A DNA stretch of 25,272 nt from positions 1-25,272 of the IMG/VR virus record IMGVR_UViG_3300042691_042930; one strand, written 5' to 3'. Of this stretch, positions 353 through 25,272 are shown piece after piece. The notes beneath the pieces are model-generated. The model was not told where the DNA came from, searched no databases, and saw only the letters and a program-made list of their open reading frames with translations. How positions within the stretch are numbered: position 1 is the stretch's first letter; every line of letters begins with the position of its first letter. This stretch comes from a virus. The position numbers were made by a program, and so were the translations under genes.

Positions 353-3300
353 TTATCCAATCTTGGTTCTCCACTCAGGTATCTTAAATGTTTTATTGAA
401 AAAATCATTCATAGAACCAGATCCACCATAAATTGAACCAACATTATTTTGACCCTGAGTTGTGTCTGGCATACTTAACATAGGTCTTGGTTCTGATTGA
501 GGTGCTGATGCTTGTATTCTAGTTTCATTTGTTGTTTTTTCTAATGTATTAATCACTTTTGTTAAAGTTTTCATTATTTCATTAGTTTCACCCATTGATG
601 ACATTTTTGTATCTACTGTATCAAGATTAGAATTTGATATATTTTTTTCAATTTTTACATTATTTGTGTCTTTTACTTCTTGTATGAAATTTCCAAATTC
701 TTTCGATTTTTCGAGTGGAACTACGGCTTCATTTTCATGAAGATATGCAACTGTTGGTGTTTTTACATATCCACCTTGTCTCAATGCAGGCAAGGCATTT
801 GAAGTTTTTGAAAAAGAAGATTTTGATGTAACTATTTTAGAATCATTTGTTGTTTTTGAAGAATCTATGTTTATCATTTTCATCATAGATGAATTATTTT
901 TATTTGTTTTTCCTAGTTTATTCACAACTCTACTGTAAAATTTTTGATTTATTTCAGATAACACATCATTTGATGGCAAGAATGTATGATCAAAATCTAT
1001 ATTTTTTGATGTATTTTTATATTCTGTTAGTTGATTTACATTGGTATTAGATTTTTTATCTAAATTTAATTTATTTGTGGAATTATTTTGATTAAAATTA
1101 TTTACTTCTTGTAAATTATTGTTGTCGATTATATTGGAATTTAAATTGTGTGTATTTAATTTTTCAATTGTTGATAAACTATTATTATTGGCATGTTCAG
1201 CATTTTTATTTAAAATTATGCTTTTTGACAATAAAGCATTTACTATTTTTTTCTTATTTAATATATTATTGTTTGATTGTTTAGAAAGTAAATGAGTTTT
1301 ATTTAATTTATTATTTGTATTTTGATGTATTAATTTTTCTGCTTCTTGATAATTTTTTATGATGCTCTGGTCAATATTGTCATAGTTTAAATTTTTATTA
1401 GCATCTATATTTTTTTCTTTTTTTACATTTTCTATATTAATTGTATTTTTATCATCGTGAGTAGTAGATTTCCCTATTCCATACTCTTGGTATATTTTTA
1501 AAAATAAATTTTTATTTTTTGGAGAAAAATTTATAAGAGCTTTATTGTCTATTGTAGATGTTTTATGCAAAGAAGTGGAAGCAGATTTTAAATTTTGTAT
1601 TGTTTTTTGTATAGGGAACAATATATTTTCATTCAATAATGCATTTTTTTCATTTTTTAAATTTTTTGTTGATGCAAAATTATTTTCAGTTGATGTAATC
1701 GAATTGTTTTCAGTTGGCGGAATCAAACTATTTCTATTACTTGATGAATATATGATGTTATTTTTTAACAGATGAACTTCACCAGAATTTTTATCATCAA
1801 AATTAAAATATCTTGGTGATTGATTGGTTGTTGTGTTGAAATCGTTATTACTTTTTATCTCATTGTTTTCAATTTTATTATTATTGAGTGATTTATTTAC
1901 TCTCGGAGTTATAAAATTAAACAATTTATTTTTTATATTTTTTCTATCTACTGTTAGTTTTTTAATTTGTGAATTCTTTATGTTATTGTTTAATTTATTT
2001 TCTTTTGATAAATAACTATTTTTAAAAGTATTCTTATTGGTTAAAAATAATATATTTTTATTTTGTTTTGGCAAATCAATTTTTTTTGAATCTATTATTG
2101 AAATATTTTTTAATGGTGATTGTTTTTTGTTTTTAGTTTCAATATATTTTTGTGTTAAATATAATAAATTTCTATTTTCTAAATTATTATTTTTATCGAC
2201 AACCAGAGTTTTTTCGTTTTTGTTACTAATATTATCTGCAATTAATGTTTTTTCATTAGTTGTTATAATTTCTTTTTGTAATTCAAATGATGGTTGTTGT
2301 TTTGATAAAATAAATTCATTGCTTGCTTTATTATTCACCATATCAGATCTATCTGTCTGAATATTTAATATAGAATTTTTATTGTTTTCCTCAGATGATT
2401 GTATACTTGATGGATTTTGTGTATTTAAGGAGATTATTTTCGAATCTTTATTATCTCTTATATTAACTGCTGTTTCTGTGTTCGCATTTATCTTTAGTGA
2501 AGAATTTATATTTTCTGTTTTTAGATTTCTTGCATTGTTTTTTACAGCTGTGTCATTATTATTTTGCTCATTATGTCTAGTTGCACTCTGATTATTAATA
2601 TTTTTTTCATCTGAGCTGCTATTTGAAGAATTCAATTGGATATTTGAGATTTTATTTGATGTATTTGGTGAATTTACATTCTTTGAACGTACATCGATTT
2701 TATCTCCATTTTGCTCAGCTATGCTATTTGACAGGGAATTGTAATTATTTACATTATTTTTTATTACTTTATTTTCATCTGAATTATTCGATATGTTCTT
2801 TGAATTCGAAATCTCATCAAATTTTTGATTTGTAATTTCTTCTCTATTTGAATTGTACAGAGAATTTTGATTGTAATTTGAATCTTTATATGATGATTGG
2901 TTTGTGGTTTTTTTATTTAAATTAAATACTGGATTATTTTTTGTGATATTGATAAATTTAAATGAATAGTTTGAGTTATTTTTGTTTCCAAAAATAGAAT
3001 TATTGTTCTGTGAATAATTTGAATTATTTTTTATGGACGAAGTAAGATCATTTTTGTTAGAAATGTTTCCGATGCTTTCAATATTCTCTTTTATTGAATT
3101 TAAATTATCCTTTAAAATGTAGTTTACCAGAGAATAATCATCTAATTTTTTTTGAATCTGAAAATCTATGAATTTATTGATGTTATCACTGTTGGATTTT
3201 CTTATTGAAGAATGCTTTTTGACCGGAGTTATCTCAGTCTTCAGTTCCTCTTTTTTTTCATTTTTATATTGTTCTGTGTTTATCGGAGTTTTCTGAAACT

Positions 3301-3391
3301 TATTATCCAATAAAGAACCATTTAGGATATTTTTTAGTTTTTCCTTTAGCTCAGTCTTGTCGGATTGTTCTTGTGATTTTATGATTTCCAT
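353..3391 (-). CDS. Putative tail tape-measure protein, Asn/Ser/Lys-rich, 1012 residues
   Basis: Probable tail-length ruler. Near the C-terminus (about residues 873-896) it carries GGYVKTPTVAYLHENEAVVP, which matches the Gly-Gly...Pro-Thr...Glu-Ala-Val-(I/V)-Pro-Leu signature common in tape-measure C-termini. It is the last gene of the minus-strand cassette, directly after the tube gene and the frameshifted chaperone pair, which is the canonical place for a tape measure. Residues from about 100 to 850 are dominated by Asn, Ser, Lys and Ile, with few hydrophobic stretches and no obvious membrane helices, so it looks disordered or extended rather than a long regular coiled coil. The N-terminal 30 residues and the last ~150 look more ordered. 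T4 gp29 has 590 residues. The start ATG overlaps the end of the preceding short frame by 13 bases, and there is no strong ribosome-binding site. Sequence similarity outside the C-terminal motif is not recognisable to me, so the call rests on that motif plus position. Confidence 0.7.
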   Translation of the reverse strand: MEIIKSQEQSDKTELKEKLKNILNGSLLDNKFQKTPINTEQYKNEKKEELKTEITPVKKHSSIRKSNSDNINKFIDFQIQKKLDDYSLVNYILKDNLNSIKENIESIGNISNKNDLTSSIKNNSNYSQNNNSIFGNKNNSNYSFKFINITKNNPVFNLNKKTTNQSSYKDSNYNQNSLYNSNREEITNQKFDEISNSKNISNNSDENKVIKNNVNNYNSLSNSIAEQNGDKIDVRSKNVNSPNTSNKISNIQLNSSNSSSDEKNINNQSATRHNEQNNNDTAVKNNARNLKTENINSSLKINANTETAVNIRDNKDSKIISLNTQNPSSIQSSEENNKNSILNIQTDRSDMVNNKASNEFILSKQQPSFELQKEIITTNEKTLIADNISNKNEKTLVVDKNNNLENRNLLYLTQKYIETKNKKQSPLKNISIIDSKKIDLPKQNKNILFLTNKNTFKNSYLSKENKLNNNIKNSQIKKLTVDRKNIKNKLFNFITPRVNKSLNNNKIENNEIKSNNDFNTTTNQSPRYFNFDDKNSGEVHLLKNNIIYSSSNRNSLIPPTENNSITSTENNFASTKNLKNEKNALLNENILFPIQKTIQNLKSASTSLHKTSTIDNKALINFSPKNKNLFLKIYQEYGIGKSTTHDDKNTINIENVKKEKNIDANKNLNYDNIDQSIIKNYQEAEKLIHQNTNNKLNKTHLLSKQSNNNILNKKKIVNALLSKSIILNKNAEHANNNSLSTIEKLNTHNLNSNIIDNNNLQEVNNFNQNNSTNKLNLDKKSNTNVNQLTEYKNTSKNIDFDHTFLPSNDVLSEINQKFYSRVVNKLGKTNKNNSSMMKMINIDSSKTTNDSKIVTSKSSFSKTSNALPALRQGGYVKTPTVAYLHENEAVVPLEKSKEFGNFIQEVKDTNNVKIEKNISNSNLDTVDTKMSSMGETNEIMKTLTKVINTLEKTTNETRIQASAPQSEPRPMLSMPDTTQGQNNVGSIYGGSGSMNDFFNKTFKIPEWRTKIG

Positions 3392-3564
3392 GTTTTATTC
3401 TTGGTTTTTTCTTTTTCTACGTCTGCTTTTAATTGCTCTATAAAGACATCTCTTTCCCAGGGCAACATGGTTTCAAGATCACTCAATGAATATCTATAGT
3501 GCTTAGTCAGTATATACATTATCTCAAAATAATTTTTGAGCGATATATGACTAAGGGTTAGGAA
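3379..3564 (-). CDS. 61-residue -1-frame extension (tail assembly chaperone 'T'-type domain), made by frameshift from the gp26-like gene
   Basis: This short frame has no conventional start. Read from the slippery run it encodes FLTLSHISLKNYFEIMYILT... through LSDLETMLPWERDVFIEQLK to a Lys/Glu-rich end, stopping with TAA at 3381-3379 inside the tape-measure start. The pattern (aromatic helix, then HYRYSLSDLE, then LPWERD) resembles the small proteins that commonly sit between a tail chaperone and a tape measure in myophages. The first ATG in frame (3519-3517) falls inside the first helix and would remove its beginning (NYFEI). No ATG, GTG or TTG lies between the in-frame stop above the slippery run and that ATG. 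A -1 slip at the end of the gp26-like gene would give a 289-residue fusion (228 + 61). Independent translation from 3519 as a 46-residue protein is the alternative. The frame is seen directly; the chaperone role is inferred from position and architecture. Confidence 0.68.
   Translation of the reverse strand, partial: FLTLSHISLKNYFEIMYILTKHYRYSLSDLETMLPWERDVFIEQLKADVEKEKTKNKTWKS
3502..3555 (-). promoter_or_regulatory. Two-tier RNA stem-loop downstream of the slippery site
   Basis: On the minus strand CTTAGTCATATAT (3555-3543) pairs with ATATAcTGACTAAG (3515-3502), giving 13 base pairs with one bulged C. Nested inside is a 7-base-pair hairpin, CTCAAAA (3540-3534) with TTTTGAG (3529-3523), and loop ATTA. 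The stem begins 8 bases after the slippery heptamer, within the usual 5-9 base spacing for stimulators of -1 frameshifting. The pairing is visible in the sequence; its stability and activity are not known. Confidence 0.6.
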
Positions 3565-4247
3565 AAAAAATCCTTAATTCCTCTTAGAGTTAATTCTCTG
3601 ACCTCCCCATCCTTTGTCCTATACTCGACATTTATTTCGAGGGTTGGCATATTTTCAAAAAAATTTATTATTTTTTCATATTGAGAACTAGTGAGACTTT
3701 CTAAAAATTCTATTATTTCCTTTTTGGTAAAATTTTTAGTTTCTGCTTTTTCACTTTGATCTTCGAAATGTGTTATACAATTGGCAAGAAGATCGTTTAT
3801 ATCTCCAGTATCATCAATTAAATCTTTGATAGTTGGATATTTCATATACAAATTAAATCCAGGCATCAGTTCAATTACATCAATTTGATTTTTTATATTT
3901 AACTGAATGGCATTTAAATCAACACCAACAACATGCGACTCGTTAGTTATTGGGCAAATTATTCTTGGATTGATAATTTCACCTACAGATTTAGATCTTA
4001 ATTTTAAGAAAGCATATTCCACTTCAAATAATGGAACTGTTGAAAAATCAATTTGGCCCTCAAAACAGACATTTAAAACTTCTATTATTCCATTATAGAT
4101 TTCAGCCTGTGATGATGTTTCCTCTAAAATTAGAAGTTTTTTTTCTTCTTTGACAAGAAATGGTCTAAATTTCTTTTTTAATTTTGAATATGGCAATTCA
4201 CATTCATATCTCGGTAGAGAGTCAATCATTATATTCTTTAAATTCAT
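3558..4247 (-). CDS. 26: gp26-like T4_baseplate-family protein; probable tail assembly chaperone
   Basis: This 229-residue protein carries the family hallmark near its N-terminus (KKKFRPFLVKEEKKLLILEE, about residues 24-43), followed by mostly helical sequence and a C-terminal strand-rich end (LEINVEYRTKDGEVRELTLR). T4 gp26 has 208 residues and is traditionally called a baseplate hub subunit. Here the gene lies between the tube and tape-measure genes and ends in a slippery T run that leads into a second frame. Those are features of the tail assembly chaperones that load on the tape measure during tail assembly (lambda G and GT). I infer that role, which does not exclude a baseplate location. 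The start ATG has a good AAAGGA ribosome-binding site 8-13 bases upstream in the 13-base gap after the tube gene. Confidence 0.8.
   Translation of the reverse strand: MNLKNIMIDSLPRYECELPYSKLKKKFRPFLVKEEKKLLILEETSSQAEIYNGIIEVLNVCFEGQIDFSTVPLFEVEYAFLKLRSKSVGEIINPRIICPITNESHVVGVDLNAIQLNIKNQIDVIELMPGFNLYMKYPTIKDLIDDTGDINDLLANCITHFEDQSEKAETKNFTKKEIIEFLESLTSSQYEKIINFFENMPTLEINVEYRTKDGEVRELTLRGIKDFFS
3564..3570 (-). promoter_or_regulatory. Slippery heptamer T TTT TTT for -1 ribosomal frameshifting
   Basis: In the gp26-like reading frame the last codons are GAT TTT TTT TCC TAA, so the heptamer fits the X XXY YYZ rule with both tRNAs able to re-pair after a one-base backward slip. It lies one codon before the zero-frame stop. 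The -1 frame is then open for 61 codons. There are eight consecutive T on the coding strand (3570-3563). Confidence 0.7.
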
Positions 4248-7234: not shown

Positions 7235-10200
7235 ATGGCTGGTAATTATCCATTTGCGGTAGACTCTTTAAAATCCATTAAAATACAGAAATCAGATGGA
7301 TCTGGTGAATTTAATGTATTTCCATGGGAAGTTAATTCTTTATCTCCACTGATATCTTTATCGATAGATGAAAATCTATTCAATCCATTAATGAGTGGAA
7401 CTTTGATAGTTAAGGATGTTGGAGACTGGTCGAATGAATTAAATTTAAAAACATTTGATCAACTTTTTATATCTTTTGTATCAAAGCGAAGAGGAATAGA
7501 ACTTGATGGAAATATTTCTGGATCTGTCTTATCTACAAATAACCTTATATTTGAAATTACGAATATAAAAAATACAGTAAACCTTGCAAATCAAGCATTT
7601 CAAAATGGCCTTGAAAATACAAAAGTCATAACGATTGAATTCGTAAGCAAAAGTATAATATCAAAAGAATTATTATCATCTTTACTTGGAGATGAAAATT
7701 TTATTGGTCCAATTGCAAGTAATAGCAATGTAAATGTAACTTTAGATGGAGAAGAAAGCCAGTCTATAACAATGACTGGATTCAATTCTTATATTCAAGA
7801 AAAGCTCGGAATGAGTATCGATGCTGATCCAACTTTTAATTATTGTTATCTAAAAAGAAATAATGTTTCATATCCATGGGGAAAACTAAAAGGTCAGCCA
7901 ACAATATTACAGACTCTACAGTATTTGTCTGAAAATGCAGTTGATTCTGAGAATAGTGCTTCTGTAAACTACCTTTTCTGGCAGGATCTTGATGGATTTC
8001 ATTTTAGATCAATATCTTCATTAATTGCAGACAACAATCAACAAGAAACAAGTTTTACATATAATTTTAGTGATGTAGAGTTATTTACTACCACTATTCA
8101 CAGCTTTGAGACATTAACTGAATTTGATGAGTTTAAACTTATAAATTCAGATGTATATTTTTCTTGGTACGAAAGATTTACTCCAGATTTTTCTGATCCA
8201 TATGCAGATTATGTAGACTCTACGGTTGCATTAAAGAAACAAAAAATATCATATAATGGAATGACAGCATATGGAGAATATCCACACATAGAATCTGGTG
8301 GAGTGTTAAATGAAGAATTGATGGTTGATAATGAAATTAAATTTCCGGAAAGTCGTAGAAAAGATGACGACATTTACGGATTTTTCTCAAAAAATAGATA
8401 CAATACTCCACATCCAGTCGATTGGGAATATCTTGGAATATCTGCTGATACTAGATTATCCAATGTGGTATGGCAAACACAATACGATATTGATGATCAA
8501 GTAAAGCCAGAATTGGTATATGCATATGATAAATTAATAAGAAAAGCTTCAGAAAAGAATCGTGAAAATTATGTAAATTTGAAAAATGCAAAGAGAAAAT
8601 GGGAAGTTTTTAGATGTGGAGCTTGCTGTACGAATCAACTTGGTGGAACAGCAGATCAAGCGATCATAGCAAATATTCAGAATAATCCAGGTGATTATGT
8701 TTACTATTTTGGTCCAACTGGAATTTTTGGAAATCTTCAAGTGGAAGGCTATGGTGTAGTTGCAGCTGGTGCGTTTTCAGATGCAGTTAATTTTATTCGT
8801 GGTCTTACTGGAGTAACGAACGGATTAACATATGCATATGATTTAAATTCAGAACCTTATAATCAAAACATAGAACAATTTTATTATTTAAAACGAAATT
8901 TAGATGCTTTAACTGGTGACTTGGATGGAGCAATTAATCAATATACTGTAGATTTAAATAGTATAAATTCAGTTATTGGTAAAATGCGTGATTTATTAGA
9001 TAAAATACCAACATGGAGACAGGAAGCAATAAATCTTGCGTATAATAACTTAACTCCAAATTTTATTCAAACTTGCAATTATCGTGGAATAGGAAGAACG
9101 CAGGAGGAAAATGAAAATCCAACTCTTGCTACTCATGGTCCAGGAACTGGAAATTGTTCATGTAGACCATCTCTTGGTGGTAATTTACTCGCAAGTGACA
9201 TTAATTATTTAACAAAAATACCAGAAATTAGAAATGCATCTAGTTACGATTTATATACATCTGGTATTGGTATAAGACCATTTGACCACTATATTCCAAA
9301 CAATGATCAAAATGTATCTAGGTATGTTTCTGCATTTCATCACATAAGAGCATTTTCTGAAAACAATGACAGAACAATAAATTCAAATACACGGTATACA
9401 CGCGGTGCGAAATTTGTTTTTGGTATACACGTAGATAACTGTTTAGATGATGTTTTATTTGATTATTATGATGAACCATGGGATCCAAGAGATACACCAA
9501 GCTATACACAAATGAAAAAACTTCCGTTATATGTAAATTTATCATATGATAATCCCCAAAAAATGATAAATGGTGCTCCAGAATTCAACGGATACGCAGA
9601 TCTTTTAATTAAAATACCAAAAATAAACAATAGAGGTACGAATGAATTTGATACAGTATCTGGTGCATATTTGTATTGTTCTTCTCTGAGACAATATGCA
9701 CTAACATCATATGATGGTATACTCTGTGGTATATTAGAACTTTGTAATTCGCCAAAGTTGTCTGAGAAAGAAGCATGGGAATTGCCTTTTATTAAGCCAC
9801 CATGGTTGTATGAATGTAGTAAAACAAAATTAATAGCTGGTAATTATTATAGAACAACTGAATCACTGGATATTCCCAAGGATATTTCCGCGGATCTTGG
9901 AAACAACTCATTTGCCGTGGGCTTATTTAATCTTAAAGGTTTATTGATTACACAAGTTTTTAATATTTTAGATTTTGACAATGTATCCCAATCTTCTGAT
10001 GTCCGTTCTCAAGATTCAAGAACTTTATCTGAAATGTTAGATGCTGGAGTTGCTTGGTGTGGTACATGTCTTGACCCAATATCTTTAGTTGTAATAGAAA
10101 AAGAATATGAAAAGGTATATAAACAATTAACAGTTAAAAAATTGGTATTGGAAAAAATAATTGAACGGTTAAATACCTTAAAAAATAAATTTGAAAATTT

Positions 10201-12865
10201 ATATAATGAATACATGGACAGAAAGGCATTTTTTATATCGAAAGATCCATTCGATCCTGGTGTAACTGGAAATATAGTAAATAAAAGATCTCCTCTATGT
10301 CTGACACAAAATATAAAATCTATAAAACGTAAACCTATTCGTGGAAGTAGATATGAAATTCTTGCAAAAAGATACGGGGTTACAGCTGGGCTATCTGGAG
10401 ATTTACCAAGAACAGCTGGTGAATATTTGTATAAAATATATTTTGATGATGATGACGATAGAAATATTGGAATAACGGGAAATCATCCATATTATGATCA
10501 AAAATATAAGTCCTTTGGAACAGACGAAGATGGAATTACACTAGCATATGCTACAAAAGATGCGTTTGATGTCGAATATTATTCAATAGATCCATATTAC
10601 TATGATGATGATATTGGAAGAGTTTGGACACAGCCATTTGGAGATTATAGTGTTGGTTTATATTACAGTGGTCTTGAAAATGAATCAGAAATATCAGATA
10701 CGGTATCAAATGAAAGATATTCTATACCAACTCCAATAAGAGTGAGAAATAATTTAAGATATCCATCTACACCAGTATTAGAAACGACTTTATCTGAAAA
10801 TTTAAGTTTTCAGACTTTAAAAACTTTAACATCAACGTCGAATAAATTTAATTCGCCAACAGGCAAACCACCATCTATTAAAAAGGAAGAAATAAGTTCA
10901 TATGTTCGCATTGAATTTATGGAGCCAATTGGTCTTGATAGACTTGCAGATTTTCCTTCCGGATTTGTCAGAGATGCTGGAAGTGAATATTTTTTACCGT
11001 ATATTGTACAGATAACACCTGGGCCACATGGAAGACAATCTATTCAAAGTCATGTTGCTGTTATTGGGATAGACCCGTATGGATTTGACGTTGCTGTAAA
11101 GAAAATAAAAACTAAAAATAATTATAACGATTATAAAGATTGGGGATATTACTGGTGGCATACACCTGTCAATAAATTAAGAATACAAAATAAAACTAAA
11201 GATATTTCAGAAATGTCTTTATGGGCCGAAAAATCGTTTGATAATGAGTTTAGTTATTTTCAAAATTCTGGGCCTTTATTTTATGATGTGGGGCATGATT
11301 TTTCTGAATACAATGATTATGTTGCTGACGCATTAAGGTTTGGTTCCCAAAATGGACAAATTTATCCGGGTGATAGAACCAGTGGTGCTTTTTTTAGTGC
11401 GGCTACGGTTCGGGACGTTCCAACATCTTCAATTAAAAGTTTTTATAATATTCCATTATCTGACTCGTACAATAATCCCAGTAACACTGACAGCTATTAT
11501 ACAAATAATATTTCTCCATATATTAATTTTGAAAGATTAGATGAAGTAGATATATTAAGAAATACAAATTTATCAAGCGATGTAAATGAAATAAGAGAAA
11601 CTAATAATATAAAAATTCCAAAATCTACATTTGATAGATCACTTAGATCATATCAATACGGCTCATATGAATTGTTATCTTCTCATTCGCATTATAATAT
11701 AAGACGAAGTTGGTATGATTTTGGATTTCCGTCTAGAACTTATCTTAAAGTGCAGCTAAGAAATTTTGCAAATGCAAATAACCAAATTTTTGGTTATGAG
11801 CCAGAAACAGTATTTTTTGGTTATGATATAACATTCTTTGGAGGAAATGACTTACTTGGTAATGATGGCAGTGAAATTGAAATTGCATCATCACAACAAC
11901 TCACAGATTTGCTAGATTCTTTAAATTTTACAACATTAATATACGATAACGCTGATATTGCTGGAAATAATTTGCTAAACACATTAAAAGAAGATAGCTT
12001 TAATTCTTTAAATCCAGATATAGAAAAATTATTCAGTGATGATATAGAGCACGCATTTAATGCTGACTTCTATTTATATAAACCGGGATTATTATCATCT
12101 CAAGTGTGGATGTACGATATATTTGGAGAAACCGAATATGGTCTTGTAAGTCCACCAACACTTCCGCCAGAATATGACAATTTTGACAATAATTTTTCTG
12201 CGCAATTTGTTGTTTTTGGTCAAACTGTAAGTGAAGCAAATATTTGTAAAAAACTCGGAATCAAATGTATTAGTCCAAATGGATATGTAAATAATATTGG
12301 ATGTGAGCCAAATGATCCATATTGTGAATGTTCCGGAAAGACTGTAATTCCAAAAGTACGTGAACCTTCATATAAGGAATTGGCTATTGCATTCAATAAA
12401 ACAAAGGAATGTGAACTGATAAAAGATGTTCTTGGGGAAGAATACCTTGGTTGCATTTTATCAGATGATCAAAATGTAATTTCTTGCAATTGCCCAGAAC
12501 AAGGAGAAAAATTCAAGGATCTGTTGGCTACTATAAGAACACACTCGACATTCTACAGCACACCACCAGAGACTCCTCTTAGGAGAAATGCACAGATGAT
12601 GCTCTTTAATGCACAAAGAGCCATGATGATGATATTCCCAAATGACGAATTAAAAATAGGAACCATATTGACAATAAATAAACCAAATCCATCCTCCGAT
12701 TATGCAAATAAATATGAAAGAGTAAGTGGAAAATGGATGGTGACTGGAATTTCAAGAATATTCAAGTCAGCGAATATTGAACATATGATAGTTTCATTAA
12801 ATAGAGATTCAACGCAGCTAGGATCGTCTACTTCAGCTACGACATATGGAAGAGATATATTTTAA
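7235..12865 (+). CDS. Giant gp27-like baseplate hub protein with a ~1,400-residue insertion
   Basis: This 1876-residue protein has a gp27-like frame at both ends. Residues about 1-380 contain FNPLMSGTLIVKDVGDW, two barrel-like regions and VNYLFWQDLDGFHFR, which matches the T4 gp27 segment KFVFVWQDIMGVNM. Residues about 1770-1870 contain LRRNAQMMLFNAQRAMMMI, a LKIGTILTIN strand and WMVTGISRIFKSANIEHMIV, matching the gp27 end. Between them lie unrecognised sequence, Cys clusters (461/464/465, 641/643, 942/945 and nine Cys between 1671 and 1753), a coiled coil at about 950-1000 and acidic DDDDD near 1070. T4 gp27 has 391 residues, so this is nearly five times larger. It occupies the position held by gp5 in T4 (53-5-6), but I see no lysozyme or spike repeat. 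AAAGGA lies before the ATG. The hub role is well supported; the insertion has no assigned function. Confidence 0.8.
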   Translation: MAGNYPFAVDSLKSIKIQKSDGSGEFNVFPWEVNSLSPLISLSIDENLFNPLMSGTLIVKDVGDWSNELNLKTFDQLFISFVSKRRGIELDGNISGSVLSTNNLIFEITNIKNTVNLANQAFQNGLENTKVITIEFVSKSIISKELLSSLLGDENFIGPIASNSNVNVTLDGEESQSITMTGFNSYIQEKLGMSIDADPTFNYCYLKRNNVSYPWGKLKGQPTILQTLQYLSENAVDSENSASVNYLFWQDLDGFHFRSISSLIADNNQQETSFTYNFSDVELFTTTIHSFETLTEFDEFKLINSDVYFSWYERFTPDFSDPYADYVDSTVALKKQKISYNGMTAYGEYPHIESGGVLNEELMVDNEIKFPESRRKDDDIYGFFSKNRYNTPHPVDWEYLGISADTRLSNVVWQTQYDIDDQVKPELVYAYDKLIRKASEKNRENYVNLKNAKRKWEVFRCGACCTNQLGGTADQAIIANIQNNPGDYVYYFGPTGIFGNLQVEGYGVVAAGAFSDAVNFIRGLTGVTNGLTYAYDLNSEPYNQNIEQFYYLKRNLDALTGDLDGAINQYTVDLNSINSVIGKMRDLLDKIPTWRQEAINLAYNNLTPNFIQTCNYRGIGRTQEENENPTLATHGPGTGNCSCRPSLGGNLLASDINYLTKIPEIRNASSYDLYTSGIGIRPFDHYIPNNDQNVSRYVSAFHHIRAFSENNDRTINSNTRYTRGAKFVFGIHVDNCLDDVLFDYYDEPWDPRDTPSYTQMKKLPLYVNLSYDNPQKMINGAPEFNGYADLLIKIPKINNRGTNEFDTVSGAYLYCSSLRQYALTSYDGILCGILELCNSPKLSEKEAWELPFIKPPWLYECSKTKLIAGNYYRTTESLDIPKDISADLGNNSFAVGLFNLKGLLITQVFNILDFDNVSQSSDVRSQDSRTLSEMLDAGVAWCGTCLDPISLVVIEKEYEKVYKQLTVKKLVLEKIIERLNTLKNKFENLYNEYMDRKAFFISKDPFDPGVTGNIVNKRSPLCLTQNIKSIKRKPIRGSRYEILAKRYGVTAGLSGDLPRTAGEYLYKIYFDDDDDRNIGITGNHPYYDQKYKSFGTDEDGITLAYATKDAFDVEYYSIDPYYYDDDIGRVWTQPFGDYSVGLYYSGLENESEISDTVSNERYSIPTPIRVRNNLRYPSTPVLETTLSENLSFQTLKTLTSTSNKFNSPTGKPPSIKKEEISSYVRIEFMEPIGLDRLADFPSGFVRDAGSEYFLPYIVQITPGPHGRQSIQSHVAVIGIDPYGFDVAVKKIKTKNNYNDYKDWGYYWWHTPVNKLRIQNKTKDISEMSLWAEKSFDNEFSYFQNSGPLFYDVGHDFSEYNDYVADALRFGSQNGQIYPGDRTSGAFFSAATVRDVPTSSIKSFYNIPLSDSYNNPSNTDSYYTNNISPYINFERLDEVDILRNTNLSSDVNEIRETNNIKIPKSTFDRSLRSYQYGSYELLSSHSHYNIRRSWYDFGFPSRTYLKVQLRNFANANNQIFGYEPETVFFGYDITFFGGNDLLGNDGSEIEIASSQQLTDLLDSLNFTTLIYDNADIAGNNLLNTLKEDSFNSLNPDIEKLFSDDIEHAFNADFYLYKPGLLSSQVWMYDIFGETEYGLVSPPTLPPEYDNFDNNFSAQFVVFGQTVSEANICKKLGIKCISPNGYVNNIGCEPNDPYCECSGKTVIPKVREPSYKELAIAFNKTKECELIKDVLGEEYLGCILSDDQNVISCNCPEQGEKFKDLLATIRTHSTFYSTPPETPLRRNAQMMLFNAQRAMMMIFPNDELKIGTILTINKPNPSSDYANKYERVSGKWMVTGISRIFKSANIEHMIVSLNRDSTQLGSSTSATTYGRDIF

Positions 12866-23352: not shown

Positions 23353-25272
23353 ATGATAAATAAAACATTAACAGGATTATCAATATTAGATTATAATGCG
23401 GCAACTGATTTACCATCAGCGATTAATGATACTTTTGTCACAAAATCGGAAACTAATTTAACAATATCATTATCATTATTAAATTCATTAACTGGAATAA
23501 GTTTGAATTCTGGCAACATAGCAAATCATAAACTATTCATTAGAATTTATAATTCAAATCTTACCACAATCTTAGACGAAAAAATATTTGATCTTGATGA
23601 TACTAATTTATTATCATCATTTCTTTATGTAAATATTAAATCTTTAACAGATTTATATGATAATGAAAAATTATTTTTATCTATGACAAATAGTGAACTA
23701 AGAAAATTATATAAAAGTTATAAAATAGTCTTTAGGGTATATACAGGAACACTGACAAATCAAACTTCTATATTAAATACAGATATAGTTCAAGATTTAA
23801 ATTTTGTGGTAAATACATTTCAAAGTGGACCATACGATGTTGCATTCGAACACTTGGATTTATGTAGTCCATCCGATTTTACGACTTCGGAAAGAATTGC
23901 AATATTTGAAAAAAATCCAATGATCATGGGAGTTGAGTCTGTTCGTTCGTTTTATTCTGAAAATTGCCAAGATAAAATGCCTCTCATTGTTTATTGTCAT
24001 GGAAATAATCAGTCAACGGAAGGATTTGATAGCTTTTTATCTCAATTTGCATCCTATGGATATTTTGGTATAAGTGTCAATTTGGATCAGGGTGGTGATG
24101 TAGTCCCAAATACATATTATGTTTTAAACTTAATCGATCATTTTAAGAAAAATATATTGAAAATAAAATCTGGTTTTTTTGACAATAAAATAGATTTTAA
24201 TAAGATAATATTGTGTGGATTAAGTCGCGGTGGACTTGCCATTGAAACAATTGCTACTAGATTGAAACGAAAAAATTCTACGTTTTCACAGTTTAATGGA
24301 AATAATCTAACTATAGAATATAATGATTTAAAATGTCTCGTTTCTATTGGTGATGTAAATCTTACTGGAGTTGGTGTAGATGGAATAGTTGCAAATGAAA
24401 GTGTATTTAGTAATGCAATATCCCCCACAGAATCCGAATTATCATATTTTTCCACAGATCATGATATACCATTAGTTAAAATTTGTGGATTTAATGACAA
24501 TCAAACTCTTAATGTTATGTTTCCGCATACTCTATTGTATCCAGGATTTTGCTATTCAAACAGATTAAATTACTTGGATAAATATGTTTTATTATCTTAT
24601 GGGGCACACAATGATTTAATAGACCACACAACAAGATCTGAAGAAAAAGCTTTTAGTACAGGTGCAAATCAGTTAAATGTGAATAATCTTAATTTAAATT
24701 CGTTTAGACATCCACTCAATGAATTTATCTCTACTTTATTGTATTTTTTTGCAACCAACATTTTTGATTCCAATAAATTAAAAAAATTAAGATTCATAAC
24801 ACCAAAAAAGCAAAGAATAAATTATTTAACAAAAGATGATACTCTAGATAGCGTATATCATCTATTTTTTCCTAAAAATGACGATATTCTTTATCATATT
24901 GATAATTTTTCTGGAATAACTTCAAGTCTGGCAGGAATTACTGGATTTACATTCAATAGCCCATTACCTTTTACATACGATTATTGTGTGGATTCTACTG
25001 TCTATGATCAAACTTCAGTTGTTCCAGTGAATCAATTATATTTGGATTTACTTAAAGAGTTGAAAGTAATAGGTGGAAAACACAATAGTATCTTTTTTAT
25101 TGACACAACTGACAATGATACATTCAATGGTGTATTGTTTAATTCATATAGATCTTTATTTGTTCCAATAGAATCAAATATATCATTTGGCTATACATTC
25201 AATAATATAATTACTTTGTCTGAAAACAACTATATTGGTCTAAAAGCATCTCAAGTTTACATGTATGGGACA
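23353..25272 (+). CDS. Tail-associated alpha/beta-hydrolase (putative esterase), 3' end outside window
   Basis: An uninterrupted frame of 640 codons runs from the ATG to the end of the window without a stop. Residues about 1-200 are beta-rich and unrecognised. An alpha/beta-hydrolase domain follows at about 205-480: LIVYCHGNNQSTEGF (His216-Gly217 oxyanion turn), FASYGYFGISVN, the nucleophile elbow GLSRGG with Ser291, KICGFNDN with candidate acid Asp382, and YGAHNDLID with candidate base His419. Spacing and order fit the Ser-Asp-His triad of dienelactone hydrolase / esterase-like families. Another ~160 or more residues continue beyond. There is no signal peptide, and the gene follows fibre genes by four bases, so a virion component that deacylates host surface polymers is the best inference; the substrate cannot be read from sequence. 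No ribosome-binding site is obvious. Confidence 0.72.
   Translation, partial: MINKTLTGLSILDYNAATDLPSAINDTFVTKSETNLTISLSLLNSLTGISLNSGNIANHKLFIRIYNSNLTTILDEKIFDLDDTNLLSSFLYVNIKSLTDLYDNEKLFLSMTNSELRKLYKSYKIVFRVYTGTLTNQTSILNTDIVQDLNFVVNTFQSGPYDVAFEHLDLCSPSDFTTSERIAIFEKNPMIMGVESVRSFYSENCQDKMPLIVYCHGNNQSTEGFDSFLSQFASYGYFGISVNLDQGGDVVPNTYYVLNLIDHFKKNILKIKSGFFDNKIDFNKIILCGLSRGGLAIETIATRLKRKNSTFSQFNGNNLTIEYNDLKCLVSIGDVNLTGVGVDGIVANESVFSNAISPTESELSYFSTDHDIPLVKICGFNDNQTLNVMFPHTLLYPGFCYSNRLNYLDKYVLLSYGAHNDLIDHTTRSEEKAFSTGANQLNVNNLNLNSFRHPLNEFISTLLYFFATNIFDSNKLKKLRFITPKKQRINYLTKDDTLDSVYHLFFPKNDDILYHIDNFSGITSSLAGITGFTFNSPLPFTYDYCVDSTVYDQTSVVPVNQLYLDLLKELKVIGGKHNSIFFIDTTDNDTFNGVLFNSYRSLFVPIESNISFGYTFNNIITLSENNYIGLKASQVYMYGT

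Follow-up and report, generated by a model that had tools for sequence, protein, structure and literature searches.

The window (the whole 25,272-nucleotide stretch of viral DNA analysed here) contains a gp26-family gene that directly precedes a tape measure gene, as in chaperone gene pairs of the lambda G/GT kind, together with a reading frame in the -1 register whose end overlaps the first codons of the tape-measure ORF, which starts with the ATG at 3391. All of these features lie on the minus strand, on which the preliminary description was silent, and are collected in Table 1.

Table 1. Coordinates of the gp26 locus and its proposed frameshift signal in the window.
Feature	Position	Strand	Remarks
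gp26-family gene (T4_baseplate, PF12322)	3558..4247	-	229 aa, the short product; proposed to be the short form of a tail assembly chaperone
Slippery heptamer T TTT TTT, in gp26 phase	3564..3570	-	seen in the sequence; inside a T8 run at 3563..3570
SD-like element AAGAGGAA	3578..3585	-	3' end of its GAGG core lies 9 nt ahead of the heptamer
Stem-loop, candidate stimulator	3502..3555	-	8 nt 3' of the heptamer; the -1-frame ATG at 3519 falls within it
-1 frame extension (gp51 domain)	3379..3564	-	61 codons plus stop; predicted long product, 289 aa
Tape measure protein gene	353..3391	-	phrog_15478 'tail length tape measure protein', E 9e-7

The 3' end of the gp26 ORF reads AGA GGA ATT AAG GAT TTT TTT TCC TAA, with the stop codon at 3560..3558. 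The -1 frame runs from the TTC at 3564 to a stop at 3381..3379; upstream it is closed by a TAA at 3576..3574, one codon ahead of the heptamer, and no ATG, GTG or TTG occurs in it before the ATG at 3519, which would give a 46-aa product. A fusion across the heptamer is predicted to have 228 + 61 = 289 aa, with the junction peptide ..GIKDFFFLTLSHISLK. The preliminary description had the heptamer in the right phase at the end of gp26, the -1 frame open for 61 codons to a stop inside the tape-measure start, the segment NYFEI upstream of any usable start codon, and predicted products of 229 and 289 residues; the sequence bears out all of this, coordinates included.

The window gp26 matches PF12322 with an E value of 7e-49 (166.9 bits vs the Pfam cut-off of 24.5), over residues 12-228 of the protein and positions 2-218 of the 219 in the model, and it also matches phrog_150 (baseplate hub; E 3e-52). 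This is the one PF12322 match in the window, a 25-kb fragment, and the long form is not encoded there in a single frame. The -1 frame matches phrog_634 ('baseplate hub assembly catalyst', gp51; E 2e-13, profile positions 67-114 of 121), and a tblastn search with it found 237 phage records, chiefly cyanophages, including annotated gp51 genes; in those records the gp51 region is labelled gp51 or hypothetical protein, or is unannotated. GenBank records of cyanophages annotate gp51 inconsistently: it is absent in S-WAM1 and ACG-2014h and has differing internal starts elsewhere, and it is joined to gp26 in none of the records (our loci L002, L003, L006, L008, L009 and L170, and other named phage records).

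Some other genes of the window are worth recording. The tape-measure-like protein is extremely rich in Asn, Ser and Lys and of low complexity over most of its 1012 residues, and its profile match is restricted to residues 866-937. At 7235-12865 (plus strand), directly after a gp53-like baseplate wedge gene, a protein of 1876 aa is encoded that has no Pfam match. The large protein encoded at 23353-25272 (plus strand) carries the motif GLSRGG, and its match to a chlorophyllase-like family (PF07224, E 0.005) is weak and below the cut-off; it is possibly a tail protein with a serine hydrolase domain.

The AlphaFold2 model of the window gp26 is confident (mean pLDDT 91.5). Residues 1-88 of the model matched the HK97 chaperone (2ob9_A) at rank 2 with a middling Z of 7.4 (rmsd 5.0, 86 aligned residues), and in Foldseek the E value was 1.8. 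The predicted N-terminal fold is consistent with the role of a tail assembly chaperone, without being proof of it. The model of the gp51 domain was of medium confidence (pLDDT 69) with weak fold matches, and no solved structure matching T4 gp51 by sequence was found.

Conservation of the slip site was examined through two IMG/VR searches, one by way of the gp51 domain and one with gp26 only; since the latter was seeded with gp26 only, its result was not presupposed. The window gp26 alone found no relatives as a query, and alignment queries were needed. The gp51 domain lay in the -1 frame of gp26 in 87 of 87 loci from the gp51-domain search, and an in-phase heptamer with a -1 gp51 frame was present in 80 of 80 loci from the gp26-only search. 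The preliminary description had proposed this test of the T-run and the -1 frame in relatives, and its reading passes it. Only one of the 166 survey loci, that of Pseudomonas phage Cygsa01, lacks the heptamer. Deduplication at 90% nucleotide identity left 140 loci, window included, all of which have an in-phase T TTT TTN (TTTTTTC in 127, TTTTTTT in 11 and TTTTTTA in 2), the heptamer having been required for inclusion in the survey set at the cost of one locus; as an internal control, other Phe-Phe pairs of the same genes take a slippery form in 5/140. The same arrangement is found, for example, in S-RS29, S-CRM01, Stenotrophomonas phage YB07, Aeromonas phage PX29, Ochrobactrum phage OC, Vibrio phages D480 and C48C1, HTVC008M, avDM12, and SRB7757. 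A third search, seeded with an Ackermannviridae-type gp26, gave 73 loci with the heptamer and five scored as lacking it; the five are three Ackermannviridae-type loci and two of cyanophage type that end too soon to score but show TTTTTTC.

The slip site is also conserved at synonymous positions. In a codon alignment of 138 genes (231 codon columns; mean wobble entropy 1.46 bits), wobble entropy is zero only at the codon before the Phe-Phe pair and at the first Phe, and the former, despite its invariant wobble base, encodes differing amino acids (Ser in 87/138). The window is AT-rich and T8 runs are common in it (six seen vs 17.6 expected by chance), which would suit a chance T-run between ordinary overlapping genes with no function, but the probability of this is negligible given the conservation in 140/140 loci vs 5/140 in the internal control and the invariant slip-site wobble bases. 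A T8 run alone is ordinary; its phase and position, together with their conservation, are not chance.

We then considered how the gp51 domain could be translated. Conservation of the -1 frame starts at the slip site (FFRIALSHDSLENYF...), and the proteins align without a break from the slip-site Phe-Phe onward (window, FFFLTLSHISLKNYFE; relatives such as FFRIALSHDNLENYFQ). Past the gp26 stop, variation peaks at the third positions of the -1 frame. If the domain were a separate small protein of 46 aa that begins at ATG 3519, through reinitiation or through coupling to the gp26 stop, one could explain why GenBank annotates distinct gp51 genes in several cyanophages, and why an ATG overlaps the gp26 stop in Dickeya phage Ds23CZ, Vibrio phages YC and 1.244.A, and Pseudomonas phage Cygsa01. 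However, conservation begins about 17 residues ahead of ATG 3519; in 47 of the 140 loci the -1 frame lacks any ATG, GTG or TTG between its upstream stop and the end of codon 12; and the ATGs of the -1 frame have a mean SD pairing of -0.8 kcal/mol, weaker than the background of -1.3 (gp26 starts, -3.6). In the window, ATG 3519 moreover lies in the stem of the hairpin. A separate protein would leave the invariant heptamer unexplained, and we regard it as very improbable.

The sequences flanking the heptamer were examined for stimulatory elements. In the relatives, GGAGG stands about 10 nt upstream of the heptamer. The Glu codon at position -5 is GAG in 77 cases vs GAA in 26, while elsewhere the counts are 948 vs 2319 (p 6e-21), and pairing with the anti-SD is -7.0 kcal/mol vs -5.4 in synonymously shuffled sequences at that position. 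As judged from these sequences, the SD-like element is under selection at synonymous sites in the relatives. That of the window forms a predicted anti-SD duplex of -5.9 kcal/mol. Downstream, the 69-nt fold containing the stem-loop of the window has an energy of -15.8 kcal/mol (z -4.9; 0 of 200 shuffles as low), and 14 of 2699 GC-matched windows fold equally well, some of which may overlap the stem-loop site itself. The corresponding stretch of the relatives is slightly more structured than control stretches (mean z of -1.4 to -1.7 vs -0.2 to -0.5). No downstream structure common to the 140 sequences was found by RNAalifold, so that of the window may be peculiar to its lineage or incidental; Rfam has no family at the site (the best, a chance match to SNORD46 on the other strand, has E 0.23).

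Slippage of RNA polymerase on the T8 run would provide another route, by which a share of the mRNAs would carry an extra U and the -1 frame would be reached by normal translation. Bacterial polymerases are known to slip on runs of eight T, such as the window has; but 129 of the 140 loci have only six T, yet use the same -1 frame, and it is the codon phase X XXY YYZ that is conserved rather than the length of the run. Selection on the SD-like element also fits a ribosomal event, and slippage of the polymerase has in our view an even slighter probability than a separate gp51 protein.

The gp26 gene of the window, from a T4-type phage, is therefore very probably a gene for tail assembly chaperones with a programmed -1 ribosomal frameshift that would give a short and a long product, as the preliminary description had read it, and this reading is supported by the conservation and the invariant wobble bases of the slip site. 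The evidence for it is drawn from sequence, namely the anatomy of the locus, the conservation of the slip site and the -1 frame, the selection on the upstream element, the homology of the predicted long product to T4 gp51, and the position of the gene. We infer from it a shift of some efficiency, to which the SD-like element and the hairpin would contribute, and a chaperone function of the products. Most ribosomes would stop at the gp26 stop codon and release the 229-aa protein. A fraction would pause at the U-run, aided by the SD-like element about 9 nt upstream and the hairpin 8 nt downstream, and the two Phe tRNAs on U UUU UUU would there move back by one nucleotide; these ribosomes would read on, in the -1 frame, into the gp51 domain and make a gp26-gp51 fusion of 289 aa. 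If the products act as lambda gpG/gpGT do, the short form in many copies and the long form in few may coat the tape measure and recruit tail tube subunits.

T4 gp26 and gp51 are hub assembly factors, and gp51 is absent from the virion. Both are listed as hub assembly chaperones in a passage of PMC3004832. T4 gp51 (249 aa) contains PF12322 over residues 1-201, followed by the gp51 domain in a single frame, and T4 gp26 has the PF12322 match only; thus T4 gp26 corresponds to the short form, and T4 gp51 to the long form, of the product of the window gene. T4 uses two homologous genes, separate and divergently oriented, and no frameshift, whereas the window has one gene and a -1 frame. Krischvirus ECD7 and Providencia phage PSTRCR_127 have the T4-like arrangement. 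Among 16 records in which PF12322 genes were counted, T4 and ECD7 have two, and the 11 frameshift-type records (sampled complete genomes) and three Ackermannviridae-type records have one each. In an unrooted protein tree, which sets no direction of change, a branch with 100/100 support separates T4-type gp26 and gp51 together from the rest, as would fit an origin of the T4-type pair by duplication in that lineage.

Among the findings that the preliminary description had set against its reading were a separate small gene with its own start and loss of the T-run in close relatives; one such case is seen, only in the distinct Ackermannviridae-type clade. These phages have no X XXY YYZ heptamer, yet their gp51 domain is still in the -1 frame, and their conserved part starts at about 'FHLxFExDLLSYF', at NTT TTC A.. 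(loci L175, Serratia phage 2050H1; L260, Klebsiella phage Magnus; L261, Salmonella phage SenASZ3; and L262, L263, L264, L174 and L005). Magnus, SenASZ3 and 2050H1 have ATT or ATC at the gp26 stop and no start codon ahead of the conserved part, and some others of this type have an ATG overlapping the gp26 stop. A slip of one tRNA on TTC and a non-AUG start are both possibilities for their -1 form.

The preliminary description had supposed that the arrangement was undescribed for the T4_baseplate family, and in this it was probably wrong. Vladimirov, Gautam and Davidson (2022, Virology 566:9-15), as represented in passages of PMC10885494 and PMC12846349, identified chaperone genes of T4-like phages. 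In a passage of the PRFect paper (PMC10885494), they are cited for some T4-like phages that do without frameshifting and have two copies, one short and one long and fused, and a passage of PMC12846349 credits them with slippery sequences of poly-T in TAC-N genes of phages of this type. Going by these passages, their genes are apparently the same as that of the window, the gp26/gp51 identity following from the description of short plus fused copies, and this kind of feature has therefore already been reported. The excerpts of the related literature that we found mention neither the SD-like element nor the window genome. The window gp26 shares at most 39% identity with the phages in the tree, and the window is a new, diverged member of this already reported kind.

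The frameshift would explain why 'gp51' of cyanophages is unannotated or given arbitrary starts, since it would have no gene of its own and would be the C-terminal part of a frameshift product that corresponds to T4 gp51. It also ties the old genetics of T4 genes 26 and 51 to the lambda G/GT chaperone model, and provides a slip site that is conserved and simple to test, in marine phages of an abundant group. Three strategies may be distinguished: a putative dnaX-like three-part signal in cyanophage-type T4-like phages (a selected SD-like element, U UUU UUY, and candidate lineage-specific hairpins), two homologous genes in the T4 type, and a -1 long form without a canonical heptamer in the Ackermannviridae type. 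We would give an even chance to this proposal, in which the three would form a natural series of ways to make the same two proteins.

The signal of E. coli dnaX consists of an SD-like element about 10 nt upstream, a heptamer, and a stem-loop a few nt downstream. The window gene has the same layout, with a U-run where dnaX has A AAA AAG; in the relatives the stem-loop is not kept as a single structure. Within the T4-like phages, the window has U UUU UUU vs the common U UUU UUC of its relatives. A conserved -1 frameshift of long-tailed phages was reportedly described by Xu, Hendrix and Duda in 2004. In lambda, many short and few long copies (gpG and gpGT) coat the tape measure, according to a passage of PMC5009743. 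The window gene shares with gpG/gpGT its place just before the tape measure gene, a predicted -1 shift near the 3' end, and a predicted long form that is the short form plus a C-terminal domain. Unlike lambda, the tail is contractile and of the T4 type and the sequence family is PF12322; the predicted N-terminal fold has only a weak likeness to HK97 gp13.
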